A stretch of 26,056 bases of DNA from a virus. The notes under the pieces were generated by a model. That model was given only the letters and a program-made list of their open reading frames with translations, was not told the origin of the DNA and did no database searches. Shown piece after piece: positions 2,667 through 22,864 of the stretch. The stretch is from positions 1 to 26,056 of the IMG/VR virus record IMGVR_UViG_3300037041_000888. The stretch is one strand, 5' to 3'. A program made the translations under genes and the position numbers. Every line of letters starts with the position of its first letter. Position 1 is the stretch's first letter.

Positions 2667-2911
2667 TCGTCATCTTCTTCTTCAACATCAAAAATCTCAT
2701 CGTGTAACTCGCAGATGCAGTAATCAATTATCTTGAGTGCCTTGCGCCGTATTCGTTTAATTCGGCGTTTATCCTCGTTACTCATCAAGGCCGTGTCCAT
2801 ATCGCTCACGGCTTGAATTGCGTTGTATGATGCTCCGATGTATTCGGGAGTGGATGTAGGAGGTAAGAACTCCATCTCAACGGCTTCGGTTATAGTATCT
2901 TGCCCTTCCAT
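2663..2911 (-). CDS. Small protein of unknown function, acidic C-terminus
   Basis: This 82-residue protein has a central basic helix (EDKRRIKRIRRKALKIIDY) and ends in an acidic tail (FDVEEEDDE). The gene overlaps the end of the phosphoesterase gene by 22 bases and the next gene by four. I do not recognise a family. Charge segregation of this kind suits a small binding or adaptor protein, but that is only a guess. Confidence 0.6.
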   Translation of the reverse strand: MEGQDTITEAVEMEFLPPTSTPEYIGASYNAIQAVSDMDTALMSNEDKRRIKRIRRKALKIIDYCICELHDEIFDVEEEDDE

Positions 2912-4140: not shown

Positions 4141-4393
4141 ATCCGTTGGGTAATTTAGTGAATATTTTATTTCGGTCGAAAATTAACTCCATGCCCTTAA
4201 AATAAACAAGCTTAGCCATCGGTACACGCTTAGTTTCCTTGATTACTTGCACCCGTTCTTCTAAACGTGCCGTGCGGTCGAGTAATACTTTTACATCGTT
4301 TTTTAGGTCGATTACGAACCACGATAAGATGGTGAGTAAACCGGGCGTAAGCCACGCCTTCACTTGGTCGATTGTGTTGGATTGCGTAGCCAT
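4127..4393 (-). CDS. Small membrane protein with one hydrophobic helix and a coiled coil; possible holin partner
   Basis: The 88-residue protein has a single hydrophobic segment (AWLTPGLLTILSWFVI, about 13-28), followed directly by a charged helix (DLKNDVKVLLDRTARLEERVQVI) that can form a coiled coil, and then a short C-terminal domain. This layout is like that of haemolysin XhlA-type or other accessory holin proteins. It overlaps the holin candidate downstream and shares one base with the end of the fibre gene upstream. An anchor for a tail or membrane complex is an alternative. Confidence 0.5.
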   Translation of the reverse strand: MATQSNTIDQVKAWLTPGLLTILSWFVIDLKNDVKVLLDRTARLEERVQVIKETKRVPMAKLVYFKGMELIFDRNKIFTKLPNGYDYI

Positions 4394-7941: not shown

Positions 7942-8226
7942 TTATACTCTTGGGGGTCTTGTGGTTTGTGTTGTGGTGTATTGCGTAACCTTGTAGTATG
8001 CGTTGAACGCATCGTCTACGATGTACTGCGTAGGGTCAACAACTGCTACCATATTGGTTGTAAATTGTCCGTGGTCGATGCTTGATACCGATGCCGTTAC
8101 ATCCGTGCCTAAAATATTAAACGATGCGCCTGCAGATGCACCGCACGGGTAACTGATGTACTCATCACCCGCATAATCGATGCAAATGGAATCGTTCCCT
8201 ACGGGTATGTTCATTGGTGATATCAT
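7942..8226 (-). CDS. Small protein of unknown function before the fibre gene
   Basis: This 94-residue protein starts MISPMNIPVGNDSICIDYAG and is strand-rich, with two cysteines and a threonine-rich C-terminus (TQYTTTQTTRPPRV). No membrane segment or enzyme motif is visible. Its start overlaps the stop of the membrane protein gene by four bases, and the fibre gene starts three bases after its stop. It may be a fibre attachment or virion-surface protein by context only. Confidence 0.55.
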   Translation of the reverse strand: MISPMNIPVGNDSICIDYAGDEYISYPCGASAGASFNILGTDVTASVSSIDHGQFTTNMVAVVDPTQYIVDDAFNAYYKVTQYTTTQTTRPPRV

Positions 8227-8591
8227 AGTTCGATGTGTTCGGTTTCGGTTTTAAATTGTGTTTGCGTTGGCTCGTCTTTTTTCATTTGGTAGGCAACAAG
8301 AAAATAAAACCATAACGTCATACCGCTAAACATTACCCACCAAAAAAGCAAGTAATACCAAGCGAGATTCGTAAGCATTACGGCTAATATCCAATAAATA
8401 ACATCACTAAATAATTGCGTGTTACACATGGGGCAACCGCCTAACCGCTTGTACCAAAACTCGCTACGGGGTTGTAACCATACCAACGGCTTCTGCATGA
8501 AATCGAATATTTGCCCTTGGCGGATGCAGTATTGATAAAGCAAGGCTACGCCCGCCGTTGATAATGCTGATATGAAAAAGATAAGTGCCAT
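8223..8591 (-). CDS. Membrane protein with a CPMC motif
   Basis: This 122-residue protein has an N-terminal hydrophobic segment (residues about 2-20), a soluble loop holding GGCPMCNTQ (CxxC), and a long hydrophobic stretch (about 62-102: VIYWILAVMLTNLAWYYLLF and the following VMFSGMTLWFYFLVAY) that probably forms two helices. The C-terminus is polar and acidic. It could be a lysis, superinfection-exclusion or virion-membrane protein. The CxxC may bind a metal or exchange disulphides. The gene overlaps both neighbours slightly, so it is part of the late operon. I do not recognise its family with confidence. Confidence 0.6.
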   Translation of the reverse strand: MALIFFISALSTAGVALLYQYCIRQGQIFDFMQKPLVWLQPRSEFWYKRLGGCPMCNTQLFSDVIYWILAVMLTNLAWYYLLFWWVMFSGMTLWFYFLVAYQMKKDEPTQTQFKTETEHIEL

Positions 8592-9289
8592 TAGTTTGTG
8601 TATATATAAGTTGCTCCGAAATTGTTTGTGTTCACATAACCAGGGGCCAAGAATCCTACTTGGTTAACTTGAATGTTAAACGTAAAGTGTTGGTTGCAGT
8701 TCGGTAATTCGGCGTACATATAAATGTCCAACGTTGGGAGGCGATTTCCCGCCAAATACTGCTCGTTGAGGTACAATGGTTGCGTTCTTGCTGAATCATA
8801 ATATAACGTGAACGGGTGCGGGTTACCGCCGGGGTGCGTTAATGTTGCACCAATTTCAAAATAAGTGTTTATAAGGAACGCTTGCAATTCATTATAGTTG
8901 ATACGGAAATGTACCAAGTGCCGACCCGCAGCGCAAGGTTGTGCGCTTATAAATTGCATCGTAGTTGTGAACGCATCGTAAGGCGGTGCGGGTGGTTGCG
9001 GTTGAAATGTCGAATTGCTTGGCAGTATTGTAACCTTAAAACAACTGATTAGCACGTTATCGCCATCGTAAATTTGAAACGTAACGTTTGAGGCTTCATT
9101 GAAGATGTATGAAGGAACTTGCAGGAACCCGTTTACGGGGTCTGCCAACCACTCACGGGTAATCATTGCGCCGTTAAATTGGTACGCAATAGTGTAGTAC
9201 CCTTGCACGGGTTGCACGATGTTGGTGAGTATCGGCGCACACGCCGAGTGGCAACCTAAATCAATCGGATTTTCGCAACATAAACTCAT
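8591..9289 (-). CDS. Cysteine-rich probable virion protein
   Basis: The 232-residue protein starts MSLCCENPIDLGCHSAC, a dense cluster of four cysteines in the first 17 residues, with three more later. The rest is strand-rich, with a proline-rich linker (PQPPAPPY) near the middle separating two probable beta domains. There is no signal peptide. It follows the neck candidates and shares a base with the next gene. A structural, perhaps tail-surface role is inferred from context and composition. I do not recognise a family. Confidence 0.6.
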   Translation of the reverse strand: MSLCCENPIDLGCHSACAPILTNIVQPVQGYYTIAYQFNGAMITREWLADPVNGFLQVPSYIFNEASNVTFQIYDGDNVLISCFKVTILPSNSTFQPQPPAPPYDAFTTTMQFISAQPCAAGRHLVHFRINYNELQAFLINTYFEIGATLTHPGGNPHPFTLYYDSARTQPLYLNEQYLAGNRLPTLDIYMYAELPNCNQHFTFNIQVNQVGFLAPGYVNTNNFGATYIYTN

Positions 9290-9293
9290 AGTT

Positions 9294-9791
9294 CTAACAA
9301 TTACAAAGGTTAATTTGGTCGGCGCATTTTTTAAGGTTGACTAATTCCTCAACTTCAAAATCCACCGAACACAAATGTAAATTCATTAAGTTATTCGATA
9401 TTTTTTCGTTACCTACTTCGTCTCTAAACACTTGTGTACGTTCCGTGGTGGAACGAGTAACAAGATGCCCTAAACGGCTAATCGCATCCACTAAAATAGC
9501 AAGGTGTTGTTCCTCGTCTACGTTGTGGAAAACACTCACAATTCGGCAGTTGGTGGTGGCTCTATACGATAGCGGTCGGCACGAATAACGTTGTGCCGAG
9601 TAGCGGGTTTCTTTGAGCGAACGGATATAAAAATAATTGCCATTCGCATCGCTTATGCCTCGGTATTCAAAATTGTCATCGAGTACCACATCTTTGTTGC
9701 TTGGCTTATGCACGTTAGCAAAACCCGTGTTGTATTGCGGGTACGTTGCGAGTAAGTACGTTTTAATATCGGTGAGTATATTTTTAACCAT
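9294..9791 (-). CDS. Probable head-tail connector or tail completion protein
   Basis: This 165-residue protein has a small alpha/beta look (MVKNILTDIKTYLLATYPQ at the N-terminus) and ends in a cysteine cluster, KKCADQINLCNC. Size and position, two genes after the first structural protein behind the capsid gene and directly after a 185-residue neck candidate, are what one expects of a connector or tail terminator in a long-tailed phage. The start overlaps the end of the previous gene by eight bases. No direct family motif is visible, so the name comes from position. Confidence 0.5.
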   Translation of the reverse strand: MVKNILTDIKTYLLATYPQYNTGFANVHKPSNKDVVLDDNFEYRGISDANGNYFYIRSLKETRYSAQRYSCRPLSYRATTNCRIVSVFHNVDEEQHLAILVDAISRLGHLVTRSTTERTQVFRDEVGNEKISNNLMNLHLCSVDFEVEELVNLKKCADQINLCNC

Positions 9792-10341
9792 TGGATATAA
9801 CTATTTTAACGCCTTCCTCAAGGCTGTTTTTTAATTGCTCGACTTCGCTCGGCGTGAGCGTTTGGAACTCGCTAAACTTGTCGGTAAGTCCTTCAATCTT
9901 TTTGTGTTCCATCGTATCGTTTTGCCCGAACACAACCGAACTGCCGAACTTGAAAACACGATAGGCGTTTTTAAGGCTTCCCGAATAATCGAGGTTCACT
10001 TTGTCCGTTGGCCTTGCTTGTACTTGTCGGAGTTCCTTGTAGCCTTGTGGCAAGTACATTGATTTGCGTGGGCGTGTAACCACCTTAAACGCCGTATCGC
10101 CGTTTTTTCCTTTCGGTTTAAAAGCCGATTTGCGCACGAACTGCTCTTTTGTAAAGTAATTCGGTTTTTCCGAATAATTGCCCAACTCCGAATTATTGCT
10201 ATTCAAACCTTCCACGAAAACCCGTTGTAAAAAATTGGCTTGTAGTTCGCTCATACTTTGCACCACGGCAACGTCAACCGCTTGGCTATCCAAGTTATCG
10301 GCAATCTCTTGCAAGCGTGCTGAAAGGTCTACAAATGCCAT
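9784..10341 (-). CDS. Probable neck protein (HK97 gp10-like position)
   Basis: This 185-residue protein has an amphipathic N-terminal helix (AFVDLSARLQEIADNL), a helix with FLQRVFVEGL, a basic middle (KSAFKPKGKNGDTAFKVVTRPR) and a C-terminal helix. It contains no cysteine, unlike its neighbours. Length, charge pattern and place after the capsid genes fit head-tail connector or tail-completion proteins of the HK97 gp10 type. I cannot confirm the fold from sequence. Confidence 0.5.
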   Translation of the reverse strand: MAFVDLSARLQEIADNLDSQAVDVAVVQSMSELQANFLQRVFVEGLNSNNSELGNYSEKPNYFTKEQFVRKSAFKPKGKNGDTAFKVVTRPRKSMYLPQGYKELRQVQARPTDKVNLDYSGSLKNAYRVFKFGSSVVFGQNDTMEHKKIEGLTDKFSEFQTLTPSEVEQLKNSLEEGVKIVISNG

Positions 10342-11313
10342 TTAAACGGATGTTTTAATATTTACGCCACCGCAATCTACACACTTGCAGTTACCATCGT
10401 TTTGCACAAGGTAGTTACGGATGCCGGCAAACATATTCGTGAGGTAGCCTTCGTAGCGGCCGTAGGCTTTATCGCTCTCGGCTTTGAGTTGGTCGGTTTG
10501 GTAGATGGTCATGTAACTGATGCGGTTGTTACTGATGGCTTCCTCGTAAAACATCGCACCGCAAAGTTCGTAGGCGGCTTGGCCGAGTAGCGATTGTGTG
10601 GCAAGGTCGCACGTTACTTTGCTTAAATCGCATTGACAAATAATATTGGCCGATATGCCGTACCCTTCGGAGGTGTTTAAATTAGTACCGCTCATTCCGT
10701 TGATACGCACACACTCGTTTTTCATTGAACCACCGCAACCGACACCGCAGTTGACGCCCGTAGAATACACGGGAATGTTGCCGGGTAATGTTATTTGTAC
10801 CTCGTTTCCGATAATAGGCTTGTTGATAACGAGTTCTTTGATAACGCCCGCCGTGAGCGTTACGTTGATTGTGTACACCATGCCACCCGTGTCGCTTATG
10901 GTTAGCGTAGTGGCACCCGTGTAATTGGTAAGGATGCGCACCGATTGAATAACCAAGGTATAGAAACGACATTGTGGCTTCTGCTTGTATGCAACAATAC
11001 CCCGTGCGTTCGGTGATGTGGCGAGGTATGTGGTTTTAAATTCGCCCGTACTCCATACGCTTGATGGTATCGAGTTCACTCGGTAATTAGCGGCGATGTA
11101 GGATTGAACATCGGAGTTCAATTTCATCATTGCACGGCGGCGTAAATCGAGCAAGTAATTATACCCCGTGATGGTTTTCTCATCATTGAATTGGGCCGCA
11201 GATTTGATTGTTATGCCGGGGTAATCCGAAATATAATAACCGCTTAAACTTTCGGTGTCTGCTTGTCCACAAACCCCACGAACGCCGATAATATTTTCAA
11301 TACAAGATGCCAT
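10342..11313 (-). CDS. Cysteine-rich virion structural protein next to the capsid gene
   Basis: The protein has 323 residues from the ATG at 11313 (MASCIENIIGVRGVCG). An in-frame longer start at 11385 would be translated through the terminator stem after the capsid gene, so I reject it. The middle (ATTLTISDTGG, then VQITLPGN) looks like a beta sandwich, and the ends are helical. Thirteen cysteines include GVNCGVGCGG, IICQC and a C-terminal GNCKCVDCGG. Position directly after the major capsid gene suggests a head decoration, head-closure or adaptor protein. No family is recognised. Confidence 0.62.
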   Translation of the reverse strand: MASCIENIIGVRGVCGQADTESLSGYYISDYPGITIKSAAQFNDEKTITGYNYLLDLRRRAMMKLNSDVQSYIAANYRVNSIPSSVWSTGEFKTTYLATSPNARGIVAYKQKPQCRFYTLVIQSVRILTNYTGATTLTISDTGGMVYTINVTLTAGVIKELVINKPIIGNEVQITLPGNIPVYSTGVNCGVGCGGSMKNECVRINGMSGTNLNTSEGYGISANIICQCDLSKVTCDLATQSLLGQAAYELCGAMFYEEAISNNRISYMTIYQTDQLKAESDKAYGRYEGYLTNMFAGIRNYLVQNDGNCKCVDCGGVNIKTSV

Positions 11314-11330
11314 CGTAAATAATTGTCTTA

Positions 11331-11366
11331 CAAAAATAAAAAAAGGCCACCGAGTTGGTGGCCTTT
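11331..11366 (-). terminator. Rho-independent terminator after the major capsid gene
   Basis: The minus strand forms a perfect 10-bp stem, AAAGGCCACC (11366-11357) with GGTGGCCTTT (11351-11342) around an AACTC loop. A T-rich tail, TTTTTATTTTTG, follows. It starts about 22 bases after the capsid stop codon. The tail also contains TATTTTTG (11338-11331), a match to the Bacteroidota -7 element, so transcription could restart here for the next gene. The terminator is clear; the promoter is weak. Confidence 0.85.
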
Positions 11367-11388
11367 CCTTTACTATGCTATGCACATA

Positions 11389-12486
11389 CTATGCCGATGG
11401 AGGCGGTGTAGCACAAGCGGGAATAGTACCTGGACATACATCGTATTTCACGATACCATTGAAACAAGAGTCTTTACAACCCGTTGTTGGCAAGTTTAAG
11501 AACTTGTAGAACGTTTTCAAGTGGTACTGCCATTTTTGGCATTTTGGTTCGTAAACAATATTCAAGTCGAACAACATACCCGATACTGGGTCTTGTACAA
11601 CTGAATGTAAGTAAGTAGAACCTTGTTGCAACAAAGATGTAGGATCTACGGCATCCCAATTCACCGAACTTTCACGAGATGCGAACAAGCCCGCATTTTC
11701 ACTGAACGTTAAGATGTTGGCAACACCGGGCAATAATGCGAACATAACCTCGTTACCCGTTACCACAGGGGCACAATTGGCCGTTACGATGTTCTTGTCG
11801 TAGAACGCAGGGAAACGGCGCATATTTTGTAACATGATACCGGCTTGATCCATACCTACATTGCGTTGTACCTCGGCGAATTTCTTCACTTGGCGGTTGC
11901 CTAACAAAACGGGAGTTACACCACCGAAACCTGCATCAGCAAAGTCTGCCATAATATCGGCGTCAACTTCGTAATTAGGTGCGCCGAGGGCGTTGATTAA
12001 ATTTAAGGTTTTGCTATCCGTACCCGTTGCAAAACAACCGGCTTCGGTACATAACCAAGTTACATACGCAGTATCGATTGCGCTTTTGATTTTCTGCATT
12101 TGGTCCCACAAGTGAGCGGAGAACGCAGAGGTCGGTGTTAACGAACCTAAATCACGGAGCGATTCGATTGGAATGTTTTTCCAAGCGGGCATCGCAAAAC
12201 AATCAAACGAGTTGAATGTCAAACACTCGGTTAAGGCACCGGCATCTGCACCAGCACCACCACAAGCGAAATCATCACACTCAACGGGCGTATCACACGC
12301 ACCTTTGGCATAAGTGATAGAATACTGCGAACGTACTCCGTTTTTTTGAATCATCTGCGCTTCTACTTGTGCGCCATTATCGGCCGAAAAGGCCATTTCT
12401 ACTGCACCGGCGGGGGCGGTGTAGCGGTTTAAACTATACAAGTCGTTAAGTACGGCTTGTATATTAATTGTGCAATTGTTTGCCAT
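11389..12486 (-). CDS. Major capsid protein (probable, HK97 fold)
   Basis: This 365-residue protein has the size and place of a major capsid protein: it follows a cysteine-free, charged, helical scaffold-like protein and is followed by a strong terminator, as expected for a very highly expressed gene. The segment KKFAEVQRNVGMDQAGIMLQ and the following RRFPAFYDKNI resemble the central part of capsid proteins I know from Bacteroidota phages. The 14 cysteines are unusual, with a cluster near residues 65-97 and another in the last 30 residues (CKDSC, then CPGTIPAC). No protease gene is visible beside it, so head maturation may not need one. The call rests mainly on context. Confidence 0.66.
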   Translation of the reverse strand: MANNCTINIQAVLNDLYSLNRYTAPAGAVEMAFSADNGAQVEAQMIQKNGVRSQYSITYAKGACDTPVECDDFACGGAGADAGALTECLTFNSFDCFAMPAWKNIPIESLRDLGSLTPTSAFSAHLWDQMQKIKSAIDTAYVTWLCTEAGCFATGTDSKTLNLINALGAPNYEVDADIMADFADAGFGGVTPVLLGNRQVKKFAEVQRNVGMDQAGIMLQNMRRFPAFYDKNIVTANCAPVVTGNEVMFALLPGVANILTFSENAGLFASRESSVNWDAVDPTSLLQQGSTYLHSVVQDPVSGMLFDLNIVYEPKCQKWQYHLKTFYKFLNLPTTGCKDSCFNGIVKYDVCPGTIPACATPPPSA

Positions 12487-12512
12487 CTTATAAAAGATTT
12501 AAAAAAGAGAAT

Positions 12513-12578
12513 AAATAGGTCTATTTCCAATAGGCAAGACAAGGCCAAAAAGAAAAAAAATTACTATTTTAAATAGGC
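12513..12578. repeat. Repeated inverted CTATTT/AAATAG elements in the capsid gene leader
   Basis: The 136-base gap before the capsid gene contains two palindromes: AAATAGGTCTATTT (12513-12526) and CTATTTTAAATAG (12564-12576). A further AATAGGC copy (12529-12535) lies between them. On the transcript they allow alternative small stems, for example CTATTGGAAATAG, with a long T-rich run between. The rest of the gap is AT-rich and holds no gene. They may be operator sites, a leader structure or a weak terminator. Confidence 0.45.
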
Positions 12579-12622
12579 ATAGTTGCCAAGGGTTGAGATT
12601 GCTCTCGGTGTGCAAGTATCGT

Positions 12623-13480
12623 TTACCCAATCGGGATTTGTTCCATCTTAGCGGCTAATCCCGCAGATGCAGGCTTTTTGCCTTCGGTTTGTTGTTGTTG
12701 TTGTCCACCGCCGGGCAAAGGTTTTGTTTCCGTGCCACCGCTTTTCTTACCCAAGTCGAACTCGGCCACGATGTCCTCAACGAGCGACTCTATCGTGTGC
12801 AATGTGGTATCGTTTTTCTTTAGGTGTTCGCCATCCGAACCTAACTTAAATAACCCGATGTTGCCATCTTCTTTCAACTGCAATAACGCACGGCTCGATA
12901 ATTGGCCACGAATTAACTCGGCGGCCTTGCTTGCGCTCATTGCGGTTTTGCCATCGAGAATAGATATAAGTTTTGAAGATAGAATACCATCCAACTTGAA
13001 TTTGTTGATTGCGTCTTGCGCTTCCTTTTGCGCCTTGCTTGTGATTTCGGGAATGGCCTTTTCGTACTCGTCAATCTTTGAGTTCGCCGCCTCCAACATC
13101 TTTTGTAAGTCGGTTTCGCTTGCTCCCGTTTTGGTGCTTACTTTTTCTTTCAATAACTCCAAGGCTTTATCGATTGTCTTACCCGAATTTTCGGGGTCAT
13201 TAAGTACATCTTCAATCTCCTTGTTCGTGAGCGCATTACCGAAAACCTTGTTAGCCATGTTCAAAGTTTCCTTCATGTACTTACCTTTCAATTGCCCTCG
13301 CTCGGTCTTAAAACGCTCGTTTAATTCGCCCTCAACGAATGGGCGTGCGTAGCCTTGTGCGGCCTTTAAGATGTCTGAAACGGCTTCGGGTTTATCCTCA
13401 TCGGATAATAAAATGGTTTTGATTTCCTCAACGTTTTCAACGCCGAGATTTTTGAGTAATGATTCGAGATTTTTAGACAT
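12623..13480 (-). CDS. Probable capsid scaffold protein
   Basis: The 285-residue protein is highly charged, rich in lysine and glutamate, predicted mostly helical with coiled-coil stretches (around residues 60-165), and lacks cysteine. It ends in a flexible GQQQQQTEGKKPASAGLAAK tail. These are usual features of phage scaffolds, which build the inner core of the procapsid and leave before DNA packaging. It lies directly upstream of the major capsid gene, the standard place. A minor capsid or tail protein is less likely. Confidence 0.62.
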   Translation of the reverse strand: MSKNLESLLKNLGVENVEEIKTILLSDEDKPEAVSDILKAAQGYARPFVEGELNERFKTERGQLKGKYMKETLNMANKVFGNALTNKEIEDVLNDPENSGKTIDKALELLKEKVSTKTGASETDLQKMLEAANSKIDEYEKAIPEITSKAQKEAQDAINKFKLDGILSSKLISILDGKTAMSASKAAELIRGQLSSRALLQLKEDGNIGLFKLGSDGEHLKKNDTTLHTIESLVEDIVAEFDLGKKSGGTETKPLPGGGQQQQQTEGKKPASAGLAAKMEQIPIG

Positions 13481-13507
13481 ATGATTGTTTAAATTGGTGT
13501 TGTTTTT

Positions 13508-13579
13508 CTACTTTCCACACGATGTACAACCGCCATTGTTATGCGCTTGTATTATCGAAAAGAAAGTTATCTTTTTTTT
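13508..13579 (-). other. Candidate -1 frameshift site (A AAA AAA) and 21-codon extension of the 81-residue gene
   Basis: The upstream gene ends GCC GAA AAA AAA AGA TAA, with nine A's in a row. A heptamer A AAA AAA in the zero frame lies at 13579-13573. A -1 slip would read on through 21 codons, giving KITFFSIIQAHNNGGCTSCGK and stopping at 13508. The -1 frame has no ATG near, so the peptide would need frameshifting to be made. The possible downstream stem (TACAA...TTGTA) is over 20 bases away, far for a stimulator. Confidence 0.35.
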
Positions 13580-13812
13580 TCGGCAACCAGTTGCCAGTCC
13601 GCTTCGGGATATGTTGTACCGAACTGCTTGGCGTTTACGATAATCGGCGTGCCTTGCTTATGCTTGTATTCAATCATCACATAACCGGGGCGTAATGCCG
13701 TGCTATTAACTACCGATGCCACCGCTTGCGGTGTTTCCTCAATTATCATCGGCTCGGTTTGGTTGCTTAAAATTTCGCCTTCCATCATTTCAGTGGTTTT
13801 TTTCTTGGCCAT
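13567..13812 (-). CDS. Small protein of unknown function in the head module
   Basis: This 81-residue protein starts MAKKKTTEMMEGEILSNQ, is acidic in its first half and ends in a compact strand-rich part (YVMIEYKHKQGTPIIVNA, then EADWQLVAEKKR). Its start overlaps the stop of the previous gene as TAATG, so it is probably translationally coupled. It contains no cysteine in the zero frame. The gene sits between MuF and the scaffold, where small head or connector proteins occur, but no function can be named. Confidence 0.6.
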   Translation of the reverse strand: MAKKKTTEMMEGEILSNQTEPMIIEETPQAVASVVNSTALRPGYVMIEYKHKQGTPIIVNAKQFGTTYPEADWQLVAEKKR

Positions 13813-14081
13813 TAGTATTCAATTTTTAAGTTCGGGTTATTCTTTACCAACTTTTCGGCTTGTGATTTTACCACCGCCATTGCGATAATACGCCCCGTGT
13901 GGGCGTTCAATACCTTAACCTTATTCGTTGGTGCGCTTGCCTCTTGGCGGGTTACTGCGGTAACGTGAGGCACAATAGCGGGTGTTTCGATTATTTCGAT
14001 TGCTTCGGCTTTCGCTTCTTCGATTGCTTCTTCGATAATAACACCGACTTTTTCCCGCTTGATTTTTGTGGCTTTGGCCAT
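13812..14081 (-). CDS. Small protein of unknown function, lysine/glutamate-rich N-terminus
   Basis: This 89-residue protein begins MAKATKIKREKVGVIIEEAI, has a long helical EA-rich segment, and ends in a small domain (KVKVLNAHTGRIIAMAVV, then NNPNLKIEY). I chose the ATG at 14081: the longer open frame to 14261 runs in the shadow of the MuF gene and encodes an unrelated tail. A TAnnTTTG element lies about 18 bases upstream. Its function is not recognised. It pairs in size and start (MAK) with the next gene. Confidence 0.58.
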   Translation of the reverse strand: MAKATKIKREKVGVIIEEAIEEAKAEAIEIIETPAIVPHVTAVTRQEASAPTNKVKVLNAHTGRIIAMAVVKSQAEKLVKNNPNLKIEY

Positions 14082-14098
14082 AATGATAATTATGAATA

Positions 14099-14106
14099 CA
14101 AAAATA
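14099..14106 (-). promoter_or_regulatory. Candidate Bacteroidota promoter, -7 element TATTTTTG
   Basis: The minus strand reads GTTTCTATTTTTGTATTC in the 74-base gap between the MuF stop and the next start, matching TAnnTTTG. It would give scaffold and capsid genes extra transcription. The -33 side shows no clear TTTG, so this is a moderate candidate. Confidence 0.38.
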
Positions 14107-14155
14107 GAAACGATGCGCTCGGCTATGTAATAACCAATATCCACTATGTGTATAT

Positions 14156-15037
14156 CTACTTGGGTTTTTGCTTCACGGGTATCGCCGTATGTCGGCAGTT
14201 GAACCCTCCCCGTTTTGCCATAAAGTTCTCCTTTGTAGTGTTCGGCATCATACCACCCCACGGATGCGATTTGCCCCCGTAGTTATCGACCTTCTTGGCC
14301 GCTTGGTTATCGTATGCTAACTTGATTTCCTTGCTTAAATCATCCCAAGCAATAAACCCGTTGAGGTCTTTAACCCATCGTGTACATTGGCCTCGGCTAT
14401 CTTCAAGGAGTGAACCGATGTAGCGCACGCCAGCCGTATCAACGGCCGATGCTACACTATGGAATTGTTGTCCTTGCAATTGCCCGATGCTATCACGGGC
14501 AATTTGCGTAGTGTAGGATTGCAGTTTACCCGACTTATCGGCATTGCCTTTAATAAAGTCGGTGAGGTTCTTTTTCGCCCGTTCAATTGAACCGCCGTAA
14601 CTGATGGACTCATCGAGTATGCGGAGTATTGGCGTTTCAAAGTCGGTACGGATACCGCTATTTAGTAGGCTCTCTGCGGTTACTTGCTTCCACTTTTGCT
14701 CCACTTGTGAGAGTTGCAAAGGTGGTACATCGAACCCGCCGATGTTCTTTAGTAGGTTGCTTGAGTTTATGGTTATCTTGCCGTAGTCGGCGATTAAAAC
14801 TTGCACTTGTTGTTGATACCCACCGCTTGTAAGTCCTCGGCGTATGGCGTTCACAAAATTAAGGAACTGCTCGTTTGATAACGTGGCAACATCGAAACGC
14901 CCACCGGCGGAGTTGATGCCATCTAACACACGAAAAACCTCATCGAGTACCTTTGTTTCTATATCGGGCATTTTGCCCTCTATTTGCTTTACAAGGTCTC
15001 GCTTAAATTTATCGTTATCGCTTAAAAAATTAGGCAT
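14156..15037 (-). CDS. MuF-like minor head protein (SPP1 gp7 / Mu F family)
   Basis: The 293-residue protein shows the C-terminal pattern of the Mu F/SPP1 gp7 family: SRGQCTRW, a following helix, then GGKSHPWGGMMP and the closing motif GGFNCRHTAIPV. In this family two conserved Cys and a His build a small, probably metal-bound domain. The first 200 residues are helical. MuF proteins are minor head components carried in the capsid next to the portal. Its overlap of eight bases with the portal-like gene supports both names. Confidence 0.75.
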   Translation of the reverse strand: MPNFLSDNDKFKRDLVKQIEGKMPDIETKVLDEVFRVLDGINSAGGRFDVATLSNEQFLNFVNAIRRGLTSGGYQQQVQVLIADYGKITINSSNLLKNIGGFDVPPLQLSQVEQKWKQVTAESLLNSGIRTDFETPILRILDESISYGGSIERAKKNLTDFIKGNADKSGKLQSYTTQIARDSIGQLQGQQFHSVASAVDTAGVRYIGSLLEDSRGQCTRWVKDLNGFIAWDDLSKEIKLAYDNQAAKKVDNYGGKSHPWGGMMPNTTKENFMAKRGGFNCRHTAIPVKQKPK

Positions 15038-16697
15038 AGATTGTTGGTGGGACCATCGCCTCGGCTTCGGTCATTAAGCGTTCAATTAGTGTATTTATTT
15101 CGGCATCAACGAACGCTTGTTGTGTCATCTGCTTGGCAATATTCACAAGGATTTTATAACCCTTTTCGTGAATGATTTTATCGGTGTCGGTATAAATACC
15201 CGAAAGATATTTAAGGCGTAGCGCATCGCCGGATATGCCGTAAAGCACATCTGCAAAATAAAGTACATCCGATATTTTCTTTTGTAACGGGTCATCACGA
15301 AATATTTTCGTGTTCACCATGTAGTTAATTTCACCGAGCGTTTGGGCATCGTCCGTTTTCGCTTGTAGTCCCGCCATCTCGTTAACCAAGTCGCTATCCG
15401 ACATGAGGTCGAACTGCTTTGGCATTACGATAGTAACCGGTACGGGAACTCCGTTCGGGTTTAAGTACATAGCAACGTAGCGCAAACCTTTTGCGTACTG
15501 CTCGAAAACGAAATTTGATATTGATTGTAAAAAATAATATTGGTCTTTTCTATCTTCTTTTTTCGCTTCGCCCGACTGAACCCCGCCGTTAACTTGGCGT
15601 AGGTATAACGATTGTTCAACACGCTCGTAGAATATCTGCCACCGCTTCATGTGGAACTCGGGAATACCAATATCGGGCGTTATAAACTTAGCGTAATCGG
15701 GCATATTACCGCCGTTTTTAATCATCGTTTCCTCGGAAATGGTGATGTAATCGCCTGGGTTATTAGTAATGTACCCTCGCCCGTTACAATCACCACAAGT
15801 TACCAAGCAACTCATCGGATCGTGTGGCGTTGTGCAATTCGGGTCGGTTATTTTCTTTTGCCCCATACAACGAGGACAACTCGATTCTACTTGCTGAACT
15901 TTCGGGTACGAATAGTGTTTGGTAACCGCTTCGTCATCATTCATGTTGCGAACAAGTAAGTCGCTCCAAAATTGATAAGGTTGGGTGTACGAGTTCTCAA
16001 CATCCCACACTGGCAACTTGCCGAAGTTGTGTATGTATTCAATCATCGTGCCCTTGCGCATATCAATCTCGTACTGCGCCTCGGCGTTAATAAAGAAAAT
16101 ACGCCCTTCGTATTTAAACGCAAAGGACTCGTAATCGTACATCAATACATCATCGGCCTCGATACATACAATCTCGGGTTTCGCCGTTTCATTGGCTTCA
16201 ACTTCGCCTTCGTGAATAACGGCCATAAACCCCTTAGGGTTCTCCATTACAAACTCCAAAATATCATCCAAGGTATCGACTGCGGACTCCTCGGCCAACC
16301 ACATCATCGTATTGTCATCTGCTTGGATGGAGTAGTTATTGGGTTGGAGAATAGCACCTTTGCAAAGATGCAAGAACTTATCAAACAACTCTTTTGATAC
16401 GGGCGAATATACCGACAATCGCCAGTTATAGTGCCCACTTGCCTCATTTGGGTGGCGGTTCAATAAACGAGTAGCGAATAAATCTCGATACTTCGGCTTA
16501 AACGTTTCGGGCGTAACCAACATATTATTTACATAATATTGAGGGCGTGCGCCTTCCGAATGTATTTTTATAGCGTTCGCCGCCTCAATTGCTTGGGCGT
16601 GATGCTCGGGCAAAGGGAGTTTGTTCTTGTTCTTGTATTTCGATACAAAGGTGCTTAATTCCACAACTGAAAATTTAGGGGTTACTGAAACAACCAA
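15030..16697 (-). CDS. Probable portal protein with an inserted zinc-knuckle pair
   Basis: This 555-residue protein is the portal candidate by size, by position just upstream of the MuF gene, and by general pattern, with a mixed N-terminal domain and long helices in the C-terminal 100 residues. An insertion at residues 274-308 has C274PRC277 and C301GDC304 with glycines (CxxCxG...CxxCxGxG), like half of a DnaJ-type zinc domain, plus Cys288 and Cys297 between. The portal forms the twelve-fold ring through which DNA enters. No ATG exists near the start: the reading frame opens at TTG 16697, overlapping the previous gene by 16 bases, and a GTG at 16664 is possible. Another head protein is the alternative. 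Confidence 0.6.
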   Translation of the reverse strand: MVVSVTPKFSVVELSTFVSKYKNKNKLPLPEHHAQAIEAANAIKIHSEGARPQYYVNNMLVTPETFKPKYRDLFATRLLNRHPNEASGHYNWRLSVYSPVSKELFDKFLHLCKGAILQPNNYSIQADDNTMMWLAEESAVDTLDDILEFVMENPKGFMAVIHEGEVEANETAKPEIVCIEADDVLMYDYESFAFKYEGRIFFINAEAQYEIDMRKGTMIEYIHNFGKLPVWDVENSYTQPYQFWSDLLVRNMNDDEAVTKHYSYPKVQQVESSCPRCMGQKKITDPNCTTPHDPMSCLVTCGDCNGRGYITNNPGDYITISEETMIKNGGNMPDYAKFITPDIGIPEFHMKRWQIFYERVEQSLYLRQVNGGVQSGEAKKEDRKDQYYFLQSISNFVFEQYAKGLRYVAMYLNPNGVPVPVTIVMPKQFDLMSDSDLVNEMAGLQAKTDDAQTLGEINYMVNTKIFRDDPLQKKISDVLYFADVLYGISGDALRLKYLSGIYTDTDKIIHEKGYKILVNIAKQMTQQAFVDAEINTLIERLMTEAEAMVPPTIYA

Positions 16698-17329
16698 CCG
16701 AGGGTACTAATACCATTGGCGGCCACGATGTCCAAGTACGGCAAAGTCCAATCTACGGGATCACCCATGAAGGTAATCGAGTAATTTTTGAACTCAACTC
16801 GTTGGCCATCAACCTCGGTATCGAACCCGGTAAAGAATTGAACCGAATACTGCATGAACGTGCCGTTGGTATTCAAGAACAAGTACACTTTACCATCACA
16901 AGTTACATAACCACGGATGGCAACGGCCTTGTTTTTAACGATGTTCTTAAAGAACTCACGGTCTTCGTAAGGGGCGGCGGCACCGGCTGAATCAACGTCA
17001 AATGCGTTGAAATCCTTGCCAGTTAATTGGCGGCTTACGTTGATAGTGGCGGGTGGTCTGCAAGTACCTTTGTACTGCTTGGTTGTGCTTGTTGGGTCTG
17101 CCCATTGCAAGTCTGCCAATTCAGGCGTAGCGGTAATATCGCCCGCCGTGATGGCGGCCGCTACGGCGGTGGCTAATGCGTTGGCATCATACGCACCGGT
17201 TGGAAAATCAAAATCGCACTTGGCGAGCAAAAGGCGCACGGGTACTTCCGAGCGTTGGTACACTTCACATTGGTCGGTCTTTGGTAATGTAATCGAACCG
17301 ACACAAGTGGCGTTACAAGTAGAAAACAT
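16682..17329 (-). CDS. Probable virion structural protein, Cys-rich N-terminus
   Basis: This 215-residue protein starts MFSTCNATCVGSITLPKTD and has six cysteines. An alanine-rich helix (ANALATAVAAAITAG) is followed by a strand-rich half ending YLDIVAANGISTLGWLFQ. Size and composition would suit a major tail protein or a head/tail connector, but it lies between a distal tail candidate and the portal, an unusual place. I do not recognise a family. Confidence 0.58.
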   Translation of the reverse strand: MFSTCNATCVGSITLPKTDQCEVYQRSEVPVRLLLAKCDFDFPTGAYDANALATAVAAAITAGDITATPELADLQWADPTSTTKQYKGTCRPPATINVSRQLTGKDFNAFDVDSAGAAAPYEDREFFKNIVKNKAVAIRGYVTCDGKVYLFLNTNGTFMQYSVQFFTGFDTEVDGQRVEFKNYSITFMGDPVDWTLPYLDIVAANGISTLGWLFQ

Positions 17330-17383
17330 AGTTTAAATGTTTAGGGGTTTAGAAAATGGGTTTATTCGACTTTGCACACCGAA

Positions 17384-18472
17384 TTAGCAACCATAAATCA
17401 ATAAGCACCTACACGAAGTCAAAGGTACATCAAGGTATTGATATTGATAGCCGGGTATATCCACACCCACAAATAATTGGTCGGTATCTGCCGTTTGTAG
17501 TTCTTGGTTATCTACCCGAAACGAGTTAGCCAATACCACACCCTCGGCTTCGGCAGCGAACCAACTCGGTACGGGGTCGCTATTAAGGCGGTATGCTTGT
17601 TGCCTTTCACCACGCACGGCGAAACACTTATCGTTAAATGTTTTCTTTACTCGGCTTGCCACTTGGTTAAGTACGGCGGGTATTCGTAGGAATAAGCGGT
17701 TTAAATCGGCTACTGCGGGACTCATTGAACCACTATGCACATATCCGTTACAATCGGTAACACCCGCCGAATAAACGCCCGATAATCGCACGCTATCATC
17801 GCAAGTTCGGTTAACCCGAAACGGCTTGGTGTAGTAATCTTTTGTTGCGCCCGAACCCGCAAAAACAACGGTTAATTTTACCCGCCAACAATTGAAATTC
17901 TCGTGCGGGCAAGTGCTACCCGTGTACGGATAACCGGGCGTTACCGATACCCCATCTAAAAAGGCTTGTAACGTTAACCCCGGCATACGATACGGAAAAA
18001 CCAATCGGCCGGGGCGTATTTCTTGAAATATAGCGGGGGTTTCATCTACGCCGTAGGTGAACCCACCATCGGCACCCGTAAATGCGTTGTTTATTACGAG
18101 GTACTGGCCAACGTTGACATCGACAAAGGCGTGGTTATAATTGAACCCGAACTCATCCTTGAAAGGCACGGGAAAGTACAATTGATATTGCGCCGTTTTG
18201 GTCGGCGCATCAAGGTATCTCCCAAACATAAATTTACCGCCGAGCGCATCGCCTAAATTACAAAGGGTGGTTGTGCCTATTTCGTCAACGATTGATAGGC
18301 GCACATTTGCGCCGATAGGCAACGCCCCGCCGTTTGCGCTTACAAGGTGATACGGCAGTTGAAAACGTAACGCCATCATATCCGTGCGGTCAACGGGCAT
18401 ATAAAACGGCGCATCTACTCCGCAAAGGTCGCAGTTGGCTTGTATGTTGGATTGCTCCCATAAGTTGTTCAT
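17384..18472 (-). CDS. Probable tail or baseplate protein, Cys-rich
   Basis: The 362-residue protein is strand-rich with several Cys-containing loops (NCDLCGVDAPFY at the N-terminus and SCRCLLIYGC at the very C-terminus). It begins one base after the stop of the 570-residue gene and shares its style, so both are likely parts of the distal tail. No enzymatic motif or repeat is visible. A receptor-binding or baseplate role is inferred from context. Confidence 0.58.
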   Translation of the reverse strand: MNNLWEQSNIQANCDLCGVDAPFYMPVDRTDMMALRFQLPYHLVSANGGALPIGANVRLSIVDEIGTTTLCNLGDALGGKFMFGRYLDAPTKTAQYQLYFPVPFKDEFGFNYNHAFVDVNVGQYLVINNAFTGADGGFTYGVDETPAIFQEIRPGRLVFPYRMPGLTLQAFLDGVSVTPGYPYTGSTCPHENFNCWRVKLTVVFAGSGATKDYYTKPFRVNRTCDDSVRLSGVYSAGVTDCNGYVHSGSMSPAVADLNRLFLRIPAVLNQVASRVKKTFNDKCFAVRGERQQAYRLNSDPVPSWFAAEAEGVVLANSFRVDNQELQTADTDQLFVGVDIPGYQYQYLDVPLTSCRCLLIYGC

Positions 18473-18473
18473 G

Positions 18474-20186
18474 TTAAATAAGGTTTCCTTTTACGTTAAT
18501 TGTTCGGTTGAAGTGGTCAAATTCTACGGAGTTAATCTCGCCTATATCGCCGTTCTTCATTACCACTTTTTGGTACAAGTTTAGTGCTGAAAATTCGCAA
18601 CAATATTGCAGTGTAAACTCAAACGCTATGTTCGTTTTCTTGCTCGGCGAGGGTACATCAATCTCGTGGTACTGCCATAGGTTTCCGTTGTTCGCCGCCG
18701 CCCCTAATGCCGGGTTGAAATTTTGATTAGGTGCGAAGGACATCGGCGAGTTGGAGTAGTAATATGTCGAAATAGGCGGGAATGTTTGCGCACCATCGTC
18801 TTGAAACTCGGGCAAACTTGAGTAATCGTTCCACGGCCAAGCGTTCGCCCTTGCATCTTGTATTGGCGAGGCGGGGTCATAAACGATAATCTTGGCTAAG
18901 TTATTCGTATCGGTAGTTGTTTTTAACGCCCGAACATATTGGCTTGTAGGAATTAATGTACTCGCATAAATATCGTCATAATATGGGTCTACTCCATCAA
19001 ACACAAAACTTGTACTACCAACCGATTCGATACGAACCTCAACGGGTTCGGTGTAGTTGGGGTTGGTTGATGGTTCGATAAACTCGCCATTGAAACGGCT
19101 TAATGATTCGTTACCCACCGCATCGATAGCATCCTTTTCGTATGCCATGTATATGCGCTTTATTTTACCCTCGCCATTCCAAGTGAAACACACGCCTTGA
19201 ATGAGTTTCTTTGCATCATCACCCGTGAAATCAAGAACGGGCGTAGTACCCCAAATTAAATCACCAATTAAATCTTTTCGGTGGAAAAATACTTTGTTGT
19301 TATGGATAAACCACCGAGCGTTCCAAACCTCTTTTATTTGGCTCAAAAAGGCGGTAAGTGTTTGCGATGGTTGGTTATTAGGGATATATGATTGAGTGCC
19401 GTTAACGGGTACTCCTTGCTTTGTGAATGAGGTTAAATAGGTGGCGTAATAATACGGGTTTGGTAAGGAGGGGTTTAGTGGGTTTTGTGTATCGTGGAAT
19501 ATTGGGTTTGTTGTTATGTCGGAGGCCAACCCGCACAAGGTACATACATTGGTTATGTAGGTAGAGATAAACGGCGAAGGCCACGCACGGAGGCACCCCG
19601 AAACCGAACCCGCAAATGTGCCGATATTCGGTATTGATGCGCCGAAAATCGCATTTATAATATTTATAACAAGGTTAAGAGGCGTTATAATTAAGTCAAC
19701 AATATTTGCCAAACTTAAAACAAACTCAAAAATCAATGTCGGCTTAAATACATCACAATACCGAAAACGAGGGTGAACGATTGCGCCAAATTGGTCGAAC
19801 ACATTGTTTGTATTATCGGCTATCGTGGTGTTTCGTATGCAGTCCAATTCGGGTTGGTAGGCTTGCATCTCGAACTCCATTATACAACCACTATCATCGC
19901 ACCACTTTAGGTTCTTATTGTCGATTTTAAATAGGTACACTTCGCCCGAACATACGTTATCGGTAATACGCACGCACATCGAATTTGAGTACATATTCGC
20001 ACCGCTAATGAGGTTGGCTTCCACGAATGTATAAGCATCTCCAAATAACTCGATGGTTCCCGTTTGTTCCTTCTGCGGGTCATTGTCGGTGTTGAGCGAG
20101 AGTTCACGAATAAGGCGGGTAATGTTTACCCATTTCGTATAGTCCACCCATCCGCCCGTGCAATTCAGTTGTAATTCTATCGTCAT
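18474..20186 (-). CDS. Probable distal tail / baseplate hub protein
   Basis: This 570-residue protein follows the tape measure gene with a four-base overlap, the usual place of distal tail and hub (tail-associated) proteins. The N-terminus (MTIELQLNCTGGWVDYTKWV) and the C-terminus (KNGDIGEINSVEFDHFNRTI) have the strand-turn-strand look of hub proteins. Between residues about 150 and 205 there is a hydrophobic stretch (FVLSLANIVDLIITPLNLVI) that could insert in the host membrane or pack inside the tail. Thirteen cysteines are present. The function is by context. Confidence 0.62.
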   Translation of the reverse strand: MTIELQLNCTGGWVDYTKWVNITRLIRELSLNTDNDPQKEQTGTIELFGDAYTFVEANLISGANMYSNSMCVRITDNVCSGEVYLFKIDNKNLKWCDDSGCIMEFEMQAYQPELDCIRNTTIADNTNNVFDQFGAIVHPRFRYCDVFKPTLIFEFVLSLANIVDLIITPLNLVINIINAIFGASIPNIGTFAGSVSGCLRAWPSPFISTYITNVCTLCGLASDITTNPIFHDTQNPLNPSLPNPYYYATYLTSFTKQGVPVNGTQSYIPNNQPSQTLTAFLSQIKEVWNARWFIHNNKVFFHRKDLIGDLIWGTTPVLDFTGDDAKKLIQGVCFTWNGEGKIKRIYMAYEKDAIDAVGNESLSRFNGEFIEPSTNPNYTEPVEVRIESVGSTSFVFDGVDPYYDDIYASTLIPTSQYVRALKTTTDTNNLAKIIVYDPASPIQDARANAWPWNDYSSLPEFQDDGAQTFPPISTYYYSNSPMSFAPNQNFNPALGAAANNGNLWQYHEIDVPSPSKKTNIAFEFTLQYCCEFSALNLYQKVVMKNGDIGEINSVEFDHFNRTINVKGNLI

Positions 20187-22864
20187 CTTAATTTTTTGTT
20201 TATTTCAATCCGCCCGAGTTGTGTGGCGATTACGTTACCGAACCCGTTGGAGTCGAATGTGTTGGTAATGCTTACCTCACGCTGGCTCAAACGCTCGTTG
20301 ATTGCGCTTAGTTGGTACACGATGCTATCGGTCTGCATCTGATTTTTGATGCTGATGTGGTCATCGACTAACTTCGTGGTGTCTAACCCGTTGCGGGTAA
20401 CGTAAAATTGCCCATCGTCAAGTTTCTTAACCACCATATCCCGTTTGTGTAACCCTTCAAATAGGTCTCGATGTTTGCTCGTCAATTCCTCATCCATTAC
20501 GAACTCCTTTTTGTGGTACACATACGGCCGTGCGCCGAGTGTGGTACTCACGTTATCGGGGTTACCATCGCCAGTGTAACCACCTTCACGGAAGGCGGGA
20601 ATATCTGCCGTAGCACCACGAACGGCGGCGATAGATGCGGCGAGTCCCGCAATGATAGCGATAACGTTTGCGGCGATACCGGCGGGGCCGAGTGCTGAAC
20701 TTGATGTGATGGCCTTAATCGCTTGGCTAATTGCCACCGCTTGGTTTGCTACGATAACAGCCGCATCGATTGTCCTTTGTGCACGCTCGTACTTTTGGCG
20801 TTTTTCGATTAACTCATTCAGTCTATCTTCTTCAATCTTCAAAGAACTGCCAGCACTATCCCGAGCGGCGGCGATTCGTTCCTCTTGTAATCCGATTAAC
20901 CTATCGTTCTTTTCTTGCTCGATGCTTATAAGGCTTTGGGCGGCTTGTGCTGCGGCCATCGTTGCATCGAATAAATCTTGGCGTTCTTGCGCCTTTCGTG
21001 CCTTGTCCTCCTCTTGTTTTTTGATTGCATCTTGAGCATCGGCCACACGTGTTGCCATCGCTTGGTATGCGGTATTTTTGGTTAGGTCTACTTTCTCTTT
21101 TTCGGCTTTTTTCGTACCCTCTAAACTCACCGAACCGAGGCTATCCATCTCGAACTCATGTTTGCGTTGGAGGTGCAATAACGCATCAAGGTAATTCTCA
21201 CGGGCAAGCATCTGCAATTTATAATTCCCCTCGGCCATTCCCATCTGCTCATCGTAACGGCGGGTTAGTGCCATCATTTCTTTCTCATCGGCAGTAAGTA
21301 GGAACTCGTCTAACTTTAGTCGGTCGGCCTCTAACTGCTTGATTAAATCGTTTTCGATTTGCTTTTTCTTATCGGCTTGTTCCTTGGCGTGGTTCGTAGA
21401 CTTCTTACCCGCTTCCTTTTCTGCGTTGGCTTTATCCTCGGCGTTACGCTTTGCCGTTATCGTTGCCTCCTCGCCTTGTCGCTTACCTCGGTTGTTGGAT
21501 TCGTCAATCAATGCACGCATCTCGGCCTCTTGACGTGCCATGAAATCCCGGTCGGCTTTTATTTTGCGGTTATTCTCGTTGATTTCTAACCGCCCGATGT
21601 ATTGCAAACCGCTTTTGGCGTTCTCGGCTTCGAGTTTCCAAATTCGGTCTTGTGCATCCTTGCGGTTTTGTATCTTGGTAGCAAGTAGCGATTTTTCAAA
21701 CTCCAACTCCTTGTCGCTCATTGCCTTGTAAACATTCGTTTGCTCGGCTTGTATTTTCTTACTCGTTTCGCTTCGCTCCTCATCCTCGCTTTGCGACATC
21801 TTTTTGAGTAACCCAAGGAAACCCGCATACGCCCCTAAAAAGTAGTTTTGTAATTTGATGGTACTTGCGCCGACCGATTCCTCAAGGTCGGCGATTTGTT
21901 GGTTTAGCACTTTGCGCATACCATCCGATGAGTTCTTGACCGATTCCGCACTCCCCGCAATTTTCGGCCCTAATTCCTCGAAGATAACACCGAGGCGTTC
22001 CGTTGTGGTGTTGGCATCCTTGATTGTTAACCCTAACTGGCGTAACGTGGCACCGCCCCGCCCTTCCATGATGTTTATCATGGTTTCCGTTGCGCTCGGC
22101 ACATCAGTCCCCATTCGGGCGGCGAGGTCGATAATAACGGGGAGTAATTGGCTTATTTCGCTTTTCGATAACTTGCCGTAGGTGAGCATCTTTTCTTGTG
22201 CCGATACAATATCGTCATTATCAAGGTAGCCTATCTGCTTTGCGAGCATATCGGCCTCGGCGGTTAGTTCGTCGAAATACTGCTCTTGGCCTAAACCCTT
22301 GAGCGTGTTTTTAAAGCGTAGCGTGGTGTTTTCGGCATCGATGAACTCTTGGTTGGCTGAACTAACAAAGGAGGATATACCGCTAACAAGCGACTCCAAA
22401 CCGAGCGAACCAACACCCAAGCCTAAACCGCCCATAATGGATTGGCCGATGTTACCGAATGAACCCACAAGGCCACCCGCCGACTTCTCGGTGGTCTTGA
22501 TTTGTTGCTCAAGTTTTTTGAACTCGGAAAGTAGTCGGCTCGCTTGTTTCGGATCGGTTGAATCGGCGATTGCTTTGGCGAGTTGCTTCTGCTTGTTGAT
22601 TAAATCGAGCGTTGCTTTCGCCGAGTTGTCGGTGGCTTTGGTGAGCGAGTCGATGGCCTTCTTGTTGGCCTCCATCGCCTTATTTAGTTCCTTCACCTTT
22701 GCCGGGTTATCGGTCTTTGCCCGTTGTTGCTCCAAGCGTTGCCCTTTGCGGATTAATTCCGTGAGCGCATCGTCTTGCTTGTCGATTGCCTTGTTTAGTT
22801 TGTCGAGTTCGGCTTGGTTCGTTTGCCACGATACCTTGGCGATTAAATCGAGTATCTCTGCCAT
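20183..22864 (-). CDS. Tail tape measure protein
   Basis: This 893-residue protein is almost entirely helical and coiled-coil, rich in lysine, glutamate, glutamine and alanine. It has two hydrophobic Gly/Ala patches (about residues 129-170, SIMGGLGLGVGSLGLESLVSG, and about 720-750, AGIAANVIAIIAGLAASIAA). These are typical of tape measure proteins, which fix tail length and help DNA entry. It contains no cysteine at all. Gene order also fits: two overlapping chaperone frames precede it and a hub-like gene follows. At about 1.5 angstroms per residue the tail would be roughly 130 nm long; this is an estimate from the family rule. Long tail, no sheath gene seen: siphovirus-like. Confidence 0.85.
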   Translation of the reverse strand: MAEILDLIAKVSWQTNQAELDKLNKAIDKQDDALTELIRKGQRLEQQRAKTDNPAKVKELNKAMEANKKAIDSLTKATDNSAKATLDLINKQKQLAKAIADSTDPKQASRLLSEFKKLEQQIKTTEKSAGGLVGSFGNIGQSIMGGLGLGVGSLGLESLVSGISSFVSSANQEFIDAENTTLRFKNTLKGLGQEQYFDELTAEADMLAKQIGYLDNDDIVSAQEKMLTYGKLSKSEISQLLPVIIDLAARMGTDVPSATETMINIMEGRGGATLRQLGLTIKDANTTTERLGVIFEELGPKIAGSAESVKNSSDGMRKVLNQQIADLEESVGASTIKLQNYFLGAYAGFLGLLKKMSQSEDEERSETSKKIQAEQTNVYKAMSDKELEFEKSLLATKIQNRKDAQDRIWKLEAENAKSGLQYIGRLEINENNRKIKADRDFMARQEAEMRALIDESNNRGKRQGEEATITAKRNAEDKANAEKEAGKKSTNHAKEQADKKKQIENDLIKQLEADRLKLDEFLLTADEKEMMALTRRYDEQMGMAEGNYKLQMLARENYLDALLHLQRKHEFEMDSLGSVSLEGTKKAEKEKVDLTKNTAYQAMATRVADAQDAIKKQEEDKARKAQERQDLFDATMAAAQAAQSLISIEQEKNDRLIGLQEERIAAARDSAGSSLKIEEDRLNELIEKRQKYERAQRTIDAAVIVANQAVAISQAIKAITSSSALGPAGIAANVIAIIAGLAASIAAVRGATADIPAFREGGYTGDGNPDNVSTTLGARPYVYHKKEFVMDEELTSKHRDLFEGLHKRDMVVKKLDDGQFYVTRNGLDTTKLVDDHISIKNQMQTDSIVYQLSAINERLSQREVSITNTFDSNGFGNVIATQLGRIEINKKLR

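Follow-up and report, generated by a model that had tools for sequence, protein, structure and literature searches.

The subject of this analysis is a 26,056-nucleotide (nt) stretch of viral DNA (IMG/VR virus record IMGVR_UViG_3300037041_000888, positions 1–26,056; hereafter "the window"), which is probably a fragment of a phage genome and whose convincing genes all lie on the minus strand. It encodes seven head and tail proteins that are very rich in cysteine (Cys), at positions that are conserved among relatives and that are gained and lost in pairs. We consider it likely that the virion of this phage is stapled by disulfide bonds and works like that of the Agrobacterium phage Milano, in a lineage unrelated to it.

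Cysteine Content of the Virion Proteins

The seven head and tail proteins together contain 70 Cys in 2232 residues (3.14%), as compared with 31 in 2834 (1.09%) for the rest of the genes, 21 small and non-virion ones that served as the control for Cys enrichment in place of a host proteome; this amounts to an about three-fold difference (Fisher P = 2.6e-7). The set comprises the probable major capsid protein (365 amino acids (aa), 14 Cys; 11389..12486), assigned from its position after the scaffold, its size, its conservation and a weak MP1-type profile match; the post-capsid protein, probably a head–tail adaptor or neck protein (323 aa, 13 Cys; 10342..11313); two tail-region proteins (362 aa, 11 Cys; 17384..18472, and 570 aa, 13 Cys; 18474..20186), the latter hub-like; the probable major tail (tube) protein (215 aa, 6 Cys; 16682..17329), assigned from position, size and conservation; a 232-aa protein with an N-terminal CC-x7-C-x3-C pattern (7 Cys; 8591..9289); and a 165-aa protein in terminator position (6 Cys; 9294..9791), which weakly matches the PHROG annotation "virion structural protein" (E = 0.0023).

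Three further proteins are devoid of Cys over a combined 1363 residues, which is below the level of the other genes (P = 7e-6). These are the scaffold candidate (285 aa; 12623..13480), the tape measure protein (893 aa; 20183..22864; phrog_1538, E = 4e-4) and a neck or tail-completion candidate (185 aa; 9784..10341; phrog_6195 tail, E = 0.004). Only mild enrichment is seen in the portal (8 Cys in 555 aa; 15030..16697; phrog_145 and phrog_7376, E values from 1e-3 to 5e-5 within the family) and in a protein with repeated Ig-like domains (18 Cys in 1181 aa; 4393–7938).

The Cys counts per protein given in the original prediction proved exact on recount, and the chain-end Cys clusters quoted there are found in the sequence. 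That prediction had set Cys-rich shell and tail-surface proteins against a Cys-free scaffold and tape measure. The Cys-rich side of this contrast is indeed unusual: comparator structural sets contain 0.31–1.13% Cys, Milano excepted (1.95% over 20 proteins), and the capsid Cys content is 3.8% here versus 0–1.4% in Bacteroidota phages, 0.3% in lambda and 2.2% in Milano. The Cys-free side is ordinary. The tape measure lacks Cys in lambda, Milano, B40-8, P2559S, TCUEAP2 and P12002L, comparator scaffolds—where identifiable—have 0 or 1 Cys, and the tail proteins probably matching the 185-aa neck candidate are likewise Cys-free in comparator phages; therefore, this half of the contrast is generic, and a special status of the scaffold and tape measure was rejected. 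Nor is the enrichment confined to exposed or shell-forming proteins, as had been proposed, given that proteins presumed to form the tail tube and the neck also belong to the Cys-rich set.

Conservation among Relatives

The capsid, tail, portal and post-capsid proteins served as queries against IMG/VR, where about 20 related uncultured contigs were found; these fall into five further lineages—G1 (L001, L002, L009), G2 (L003, L004, L006), G3 (L005, L008), G4 (L022–L026, L033–L036) and G5 (L032)—and one distant branch (L040–L042; 20–27% identity). The window (W) and G1–G5 constitute the six near lineages, across which the mean conservation of window residues is 82% for Cys, followed by Gly (59%) and Trp (57%); thus, the possibility that the Cys are not conserved between related phages is excluded.

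At the level of individual proteins, C64, C75, C316, C337, C351 and C358 of the capsid are invariant in the six lineages, while C70, C96, C146 and C238 have been lost together in G4 and G5. All seven Cys of the 232-aa protein are invariant at an overall identity of 25%. In the 323-aa protein, Cys accounts for 8 of the 19 columns that are invariant over 16 relatives, and the same eight are also present in the distant branch. C5, C9, C21 and C38 of the 215-aa tail protein are invariant, as are the C-terminal C156, C163 and C165 of the 165-aa protein. The Cys-free proteins remain so across lineages, with one scaffold Cys in G5 as the exception; the 185-aa protein is Cys-free in every relative.

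Some relatives depart from the window in gene content. In G5 (L032, 11518–12892), the 165-aa protein carries an extra C-terminal domain of 200 residues, and the next Cys-rich protein is only 90 aa long, with 8 Cys. The contigs of the distant branch share the head module, comprising portal, capsid, post-capsid and neck proteins, the scaffold being shared by L040 only; no detectable match to the tail proteins of the window was found in L040–L042, and L040 and L041 have open reading frames of similar size ahead of the portal.

Paired Turnover of Cysteines

Different roles of Cys imply different modes of evolutionary change: free thiols are expected to change singly, metal sites in fours with swaps to His or Asp, and disulfides in pairs. 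Each variable Cys column was scored as present or absent per lineage, columns of equal pattern within the same protein were counted, and the null was obtained by shuffling patterns among the seven Cys-rich proteins, the portal being left out. For Cys, 18 matched same-protein pairs were found versus 10.5 expected (z = 4.6, P = 7e-4); upon removal of the columns that follow the deep split of G4 and G5, 13 remained versus 6.7 expected (P = 2e-4). No pairing excess was seen for the other 19 amino acids, the best being His (z = 1.2, P = 0.2). The Cys-specificity of paired gain and loss argues for disulfides, and against both free thiols and metal sites of four ligands.

Several pairs have changed more than once on a tree built with the Cys columns masked (support of 99 for G1 + G2 and of 100 for G4 + G5). 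C71/C188 of the 362-aa protein are both absent in G2 and in G4, C9/C71 of the 570-aa protein are both absent in G3 and in G5, and C151/C341 of the capsid are present only in W and G1. Single paired events are the loss of C241/C356 in G3 and the gain of 57/285 in G4 (362-aa protein), the loss of C79/C530 in G4 and the gain of 458/487 in G3 (570-aa protein), the loss of C5/C88 in G5 (capsid) and the gain of 136/159 in G5 in the 215-aa tail protein, of which C90/C144 are absent in G4 and G5. In the 323-aa protein, C201/C226 have been lost together in G4, G5 and L040–L042.

For the latter protein, an AlphaFold2 model based on a wider alignment (predicted local distance difference test score (pLDDT) of 76) displays two N-terminal helices, a beta-sandwich and C-terminal helices. 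C201 and C226 are predicted at the facing ends of neighbouring strands (202–208 and 220–228), a placement that would suit a cross-strand disulfide. The arrangement of helices and beta-sandwich, together with the location of the gene just after the capsid gene, suggests that the protein is a head–tail adaptor. A fold search with this model returned no PDB match at E ≤ 0.001, with generic beta-sandwich matches only and unlisted families remaining possible, and two good but unnamed viral matches in BFVD.

Comparison with Milano and Cultured Bacteroidota Phages

Milano (Schmittlotzvirus), 7-7-1 and OLIVR4 possess Cys-rich structural proteins (2.1–2.6% reported) whose Cys are conserved among relatives; intra- and inter-chain disulfides have been solved for Milano and 7-7-1. 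In Milano, the structural proteins have 2.1–2.4% Cys, the disulfides have been mapped—including the inter-ring bond Cys3–Cys19 of the tube protein gp21—and the stability against heat and sonication is sensitive to dithiothreitol (PMC10491603, PMC10811340, PMC12796354). The Milano neck protein gp14 is composed of helices and a beta-sandwich and is disulfide-linked to the capsid; the 323-aa protein is comparable to it by analogy of layout.

As assigned here, the capsid, the neck, the tube and further tail proteins of the window are rich in Cys like those of Milano, and the tape measure is Cys-free in both. Milano-type virions are marked by structural proteins with at least 2% Cys, well above the non-structural genes, and by Cys positions conserved among relatives; both are found here (3.14% versus 1.09% for the former). 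Milano differs in having a contractile tail and an alphaproteobacterial host, the disulfide network is proven there but predicted here, and the density of Cys is higher in the window clade (capsid, 3.8% versus 2.2%). No sequence similarity to Milano was detectable with hhalign for the capsid (E = 0.27) or for the post-capsid protein versus gp14 (E = 0.26), where remote shared folds are possible; as far as the sequence tells, the window does not belong to the Milano clade by descent.

A closer likeness exists to phages of the B40-8 type, i.e., Bacteroides phage B40-8, Croceibacter phage P2559S, Elizabethkingia phage TCUEAP2 and Alistipes phage AS73P1 (compared by way of records NC_018276, OK632025, OP172640 and FJ008913). 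Gene order is shared—small tail protein (MP2), portal, head protein, scaffold, capsid (MP1) and post-capsid protein—and the 323-aa protein is homologous to the post-capsid protein of this type (hhalign P = 4.7e-6, probability 86%, 202 columns; hidden Markov model E = 0.001), with CGxC, GCD and C-terminal CxxC motifs in common. Links of the other virion proteins are weaker: the capsid is co-linear with MP1-type capsids over 243 columns (hhalign E = 0.12), and the 215-aa tail protein, lying directly upstream of the portal in the same place as MP2 in B40-8, aligns with MP2 at E = 0.36. The spacing of 16 residues between C5 and C21 of this tail protein equals that of Cys3–Cys19 in Milano gp21 and recurs in MP2 of B40-8 (C4/C20), TCUEAP2 (C6/C22) and AS73P1 (C3/C19), the N-terminal Cys spacing in P2559S being 14; it may reflect chance or convergence. 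B40-8-type phages differ in that their capsids have 0–5 Cys and their structural sets 0.5–1.1%; therefore, stapling of the virion does not extend to the group in its entirety.

Given these links, and because no sheath protein was recognised among the structural proteins scanned (several of which lack any family match), the tail is probably non-contractile and the lineage that of a siphophage. The host is probably a member of the Bacteroidota, judging from the B40-8-type links and from the enzyme encoded at 2890–3858, a metallophosphoesterase that shares 44% identity with one from Chryseobacterium phage MA9V-1. Two genome scans revealed no provirus.

Proposed Assembly and Alternative Readings

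According to the stapling model, the host cytoplasm would produce the seven Cys-rich proteins with their thiols reduced, and particle assembly around the scaffold and tape measure, both free of Cys, would proceed as normal. Lysis would then expose the particle to air or an oxidised medium, upon which the thiols would oxidise, yielding a head, neck and tail covalently stapled by disulfides within and between chains and thereby, presumably, a more stable virion. A few Cys would bind metal instead, namely those of the portal CxxC...CxxC and possibly those of the CxxxC and CxxC core of the 323-aa protein. Hardening after release, as the original prediction had envisaged, is plausible and would fit a reducing cytoplasm.

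Several points weigh against this model. The bonds are predictions from sequence, and the AlphaFold2 model of the capsid, built from nine sequences, has a pLDDT of 31 and offers no usable geometry. In some of the proteins the number of Cys is odd (13, 7), which requires that there be inter-chain partners, metal or free thiols. The turnover analysis covers only six lineages with few events per pair, which makes single pairs tentative; chance alone would yield about every second matched pair, and the portal likewise has four matched pairs, mostly gains in a single lineage. Finally, no gene for thioredoxin, glutaredoxin or VKOR turned up in the ten records searched, which are possibly fragments. 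Oxidation in air, for its part, needs no oxidoreductase.

How far the stapling extends is a separate matter. It is conceivable, although we would not favour it at present, that everything from the capsid through the neck to the tube and tip of the non-contractile tail forms one disulfide-linked network that evolved independently of Milano; such a network would be an elaboration on the conserved Cys core of the neck protein, and on a similar N-terminal pattern of the tail protein, of cultured Bacteroidota phages. DNA release from a particle of this kind would call for reduction or for some bonds to open locally. Rather unlikely, in our estimate, is a narrower and overlapping form of the stapling model, in which the disulfides are mainly intrachain, with few links between subunits and no covalent network. 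Paired turnover within a protein is equally expected from intrachain bonds, and the modelled C201/C226 of the 323-aa protein would resemble an intrachain hairpin bond; the flexible chain-end clusters and odd Cys numbers, however, suggest interchain partners, and in Milano it is the terminal Cys that make interchain bonds.

An improbable alternative is that, all over the virion, the Cys act as ligands of zinc or another metal in structural sites that serve folding in a reducing cytoplasm, and that disulfides are few. It could account for the CxxC and CxC motifs at chain ends, the DnaJ-like appearance of the portal insert and the CGxC/CxxC core in post-capsid proteins of cultured Bacteroidota phages. 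Yet, the turnover excess is in pairs rather than in fours with His or Asp swaps, the pairing excess of His itself is non-significant (z = 1.2), and widely spaced isolated pairs (71/188, 9/71, 241/356) cannot build a four-ligand site on one chain. The strongest case for metal is the portal insert, C274xxC277...C301xxC304, which is kept in the six near lineages and is likely a DnaJ-like zinc ribbon, i.e., a metal site and not a disulfide; its best PDB match is DnaJ 1exk (E = 0.17, not significant alone), and Q-like antitermination PHROGs match this stretch in 9 of 9 family members. The CxxxC and C-terminal CxxC of the 323-aa protein, which correspond to the CGxC and CxxC of the cultured phages, may be either a zinc site or a disulfide. 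The original prediction had left disulfides and metal sites side by side; conservation, paired turnover and the Milano precedent support the former indirectly, while metal seems likely only in the portal insert and perhaps in part of the 323-aa protein. One of the four Cys of the portal insert is changed in the distant branch L040–L042.

That Cys richness is a by-product of a Cys-rich host or phage genome, with no cross-linking role in the virion, is very hard to credit and largely refuted: the other genes of the window are, at 1.1% Cys, somewhat above the 0.3–0.8% of most comparator structural sets, but the three-fold gap between gene classes inside one genome, the position-specific conservation, the paired turnover and the Cys-free scaffold, tape measure and neck proteins all count against it.

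Other Genes and Searches

Between portal and scaffold lies a head protein of 293 aa (14156..15037) with two Cys, both of which are invariant. The Ig-like protein has PHROG matches to virion structural proteins; its versions in relatives are highly variable in length (about 390–660 aa), and it is possibly a tail or capsid fibre. A small membrane-like protein (8223–8591, minus strand) with an invariant GGCxxC motif (GGCKICTIQRF in relatives) adjoins the Cys-rich genes in all lineages; it has no family match above the cut-off, and an involvement in thiol redox is possible. The ATG start of the 323-aa protein at 11313 is confirmed by its N-terminal motif C-[LIF]-[DE]-N-I-I, which is kept in relatives. 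When 50,697 phage records were searched by tblastn, the capsid, the portal and the 570-aa, 323-aa and tail proteins gave no match. Nothing significant was obtained when PDB sequences were searched with profiles of the capsid, tail and portal, and the capsid has no PHROG match.

Implications

The open literature covered by our search reports disulfide stapling of tailed phages for one Agrobacterium clade only, and the authors of that work suggested a link to the environment of that host. If the stapling model is true, the window would represent a second, unrelated and probably Bacteroidota-infecting clade, and stapling would be a convergent strategy and not the quirk of one host. Cys-specific paired turnover would then provide a simple sequence test for finding other such phages. 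Such a clade would also pose the question of how a stapled particle opens. As cultured Bacteroidota phages share the conserved Cys core, part of the idea is directly testable.

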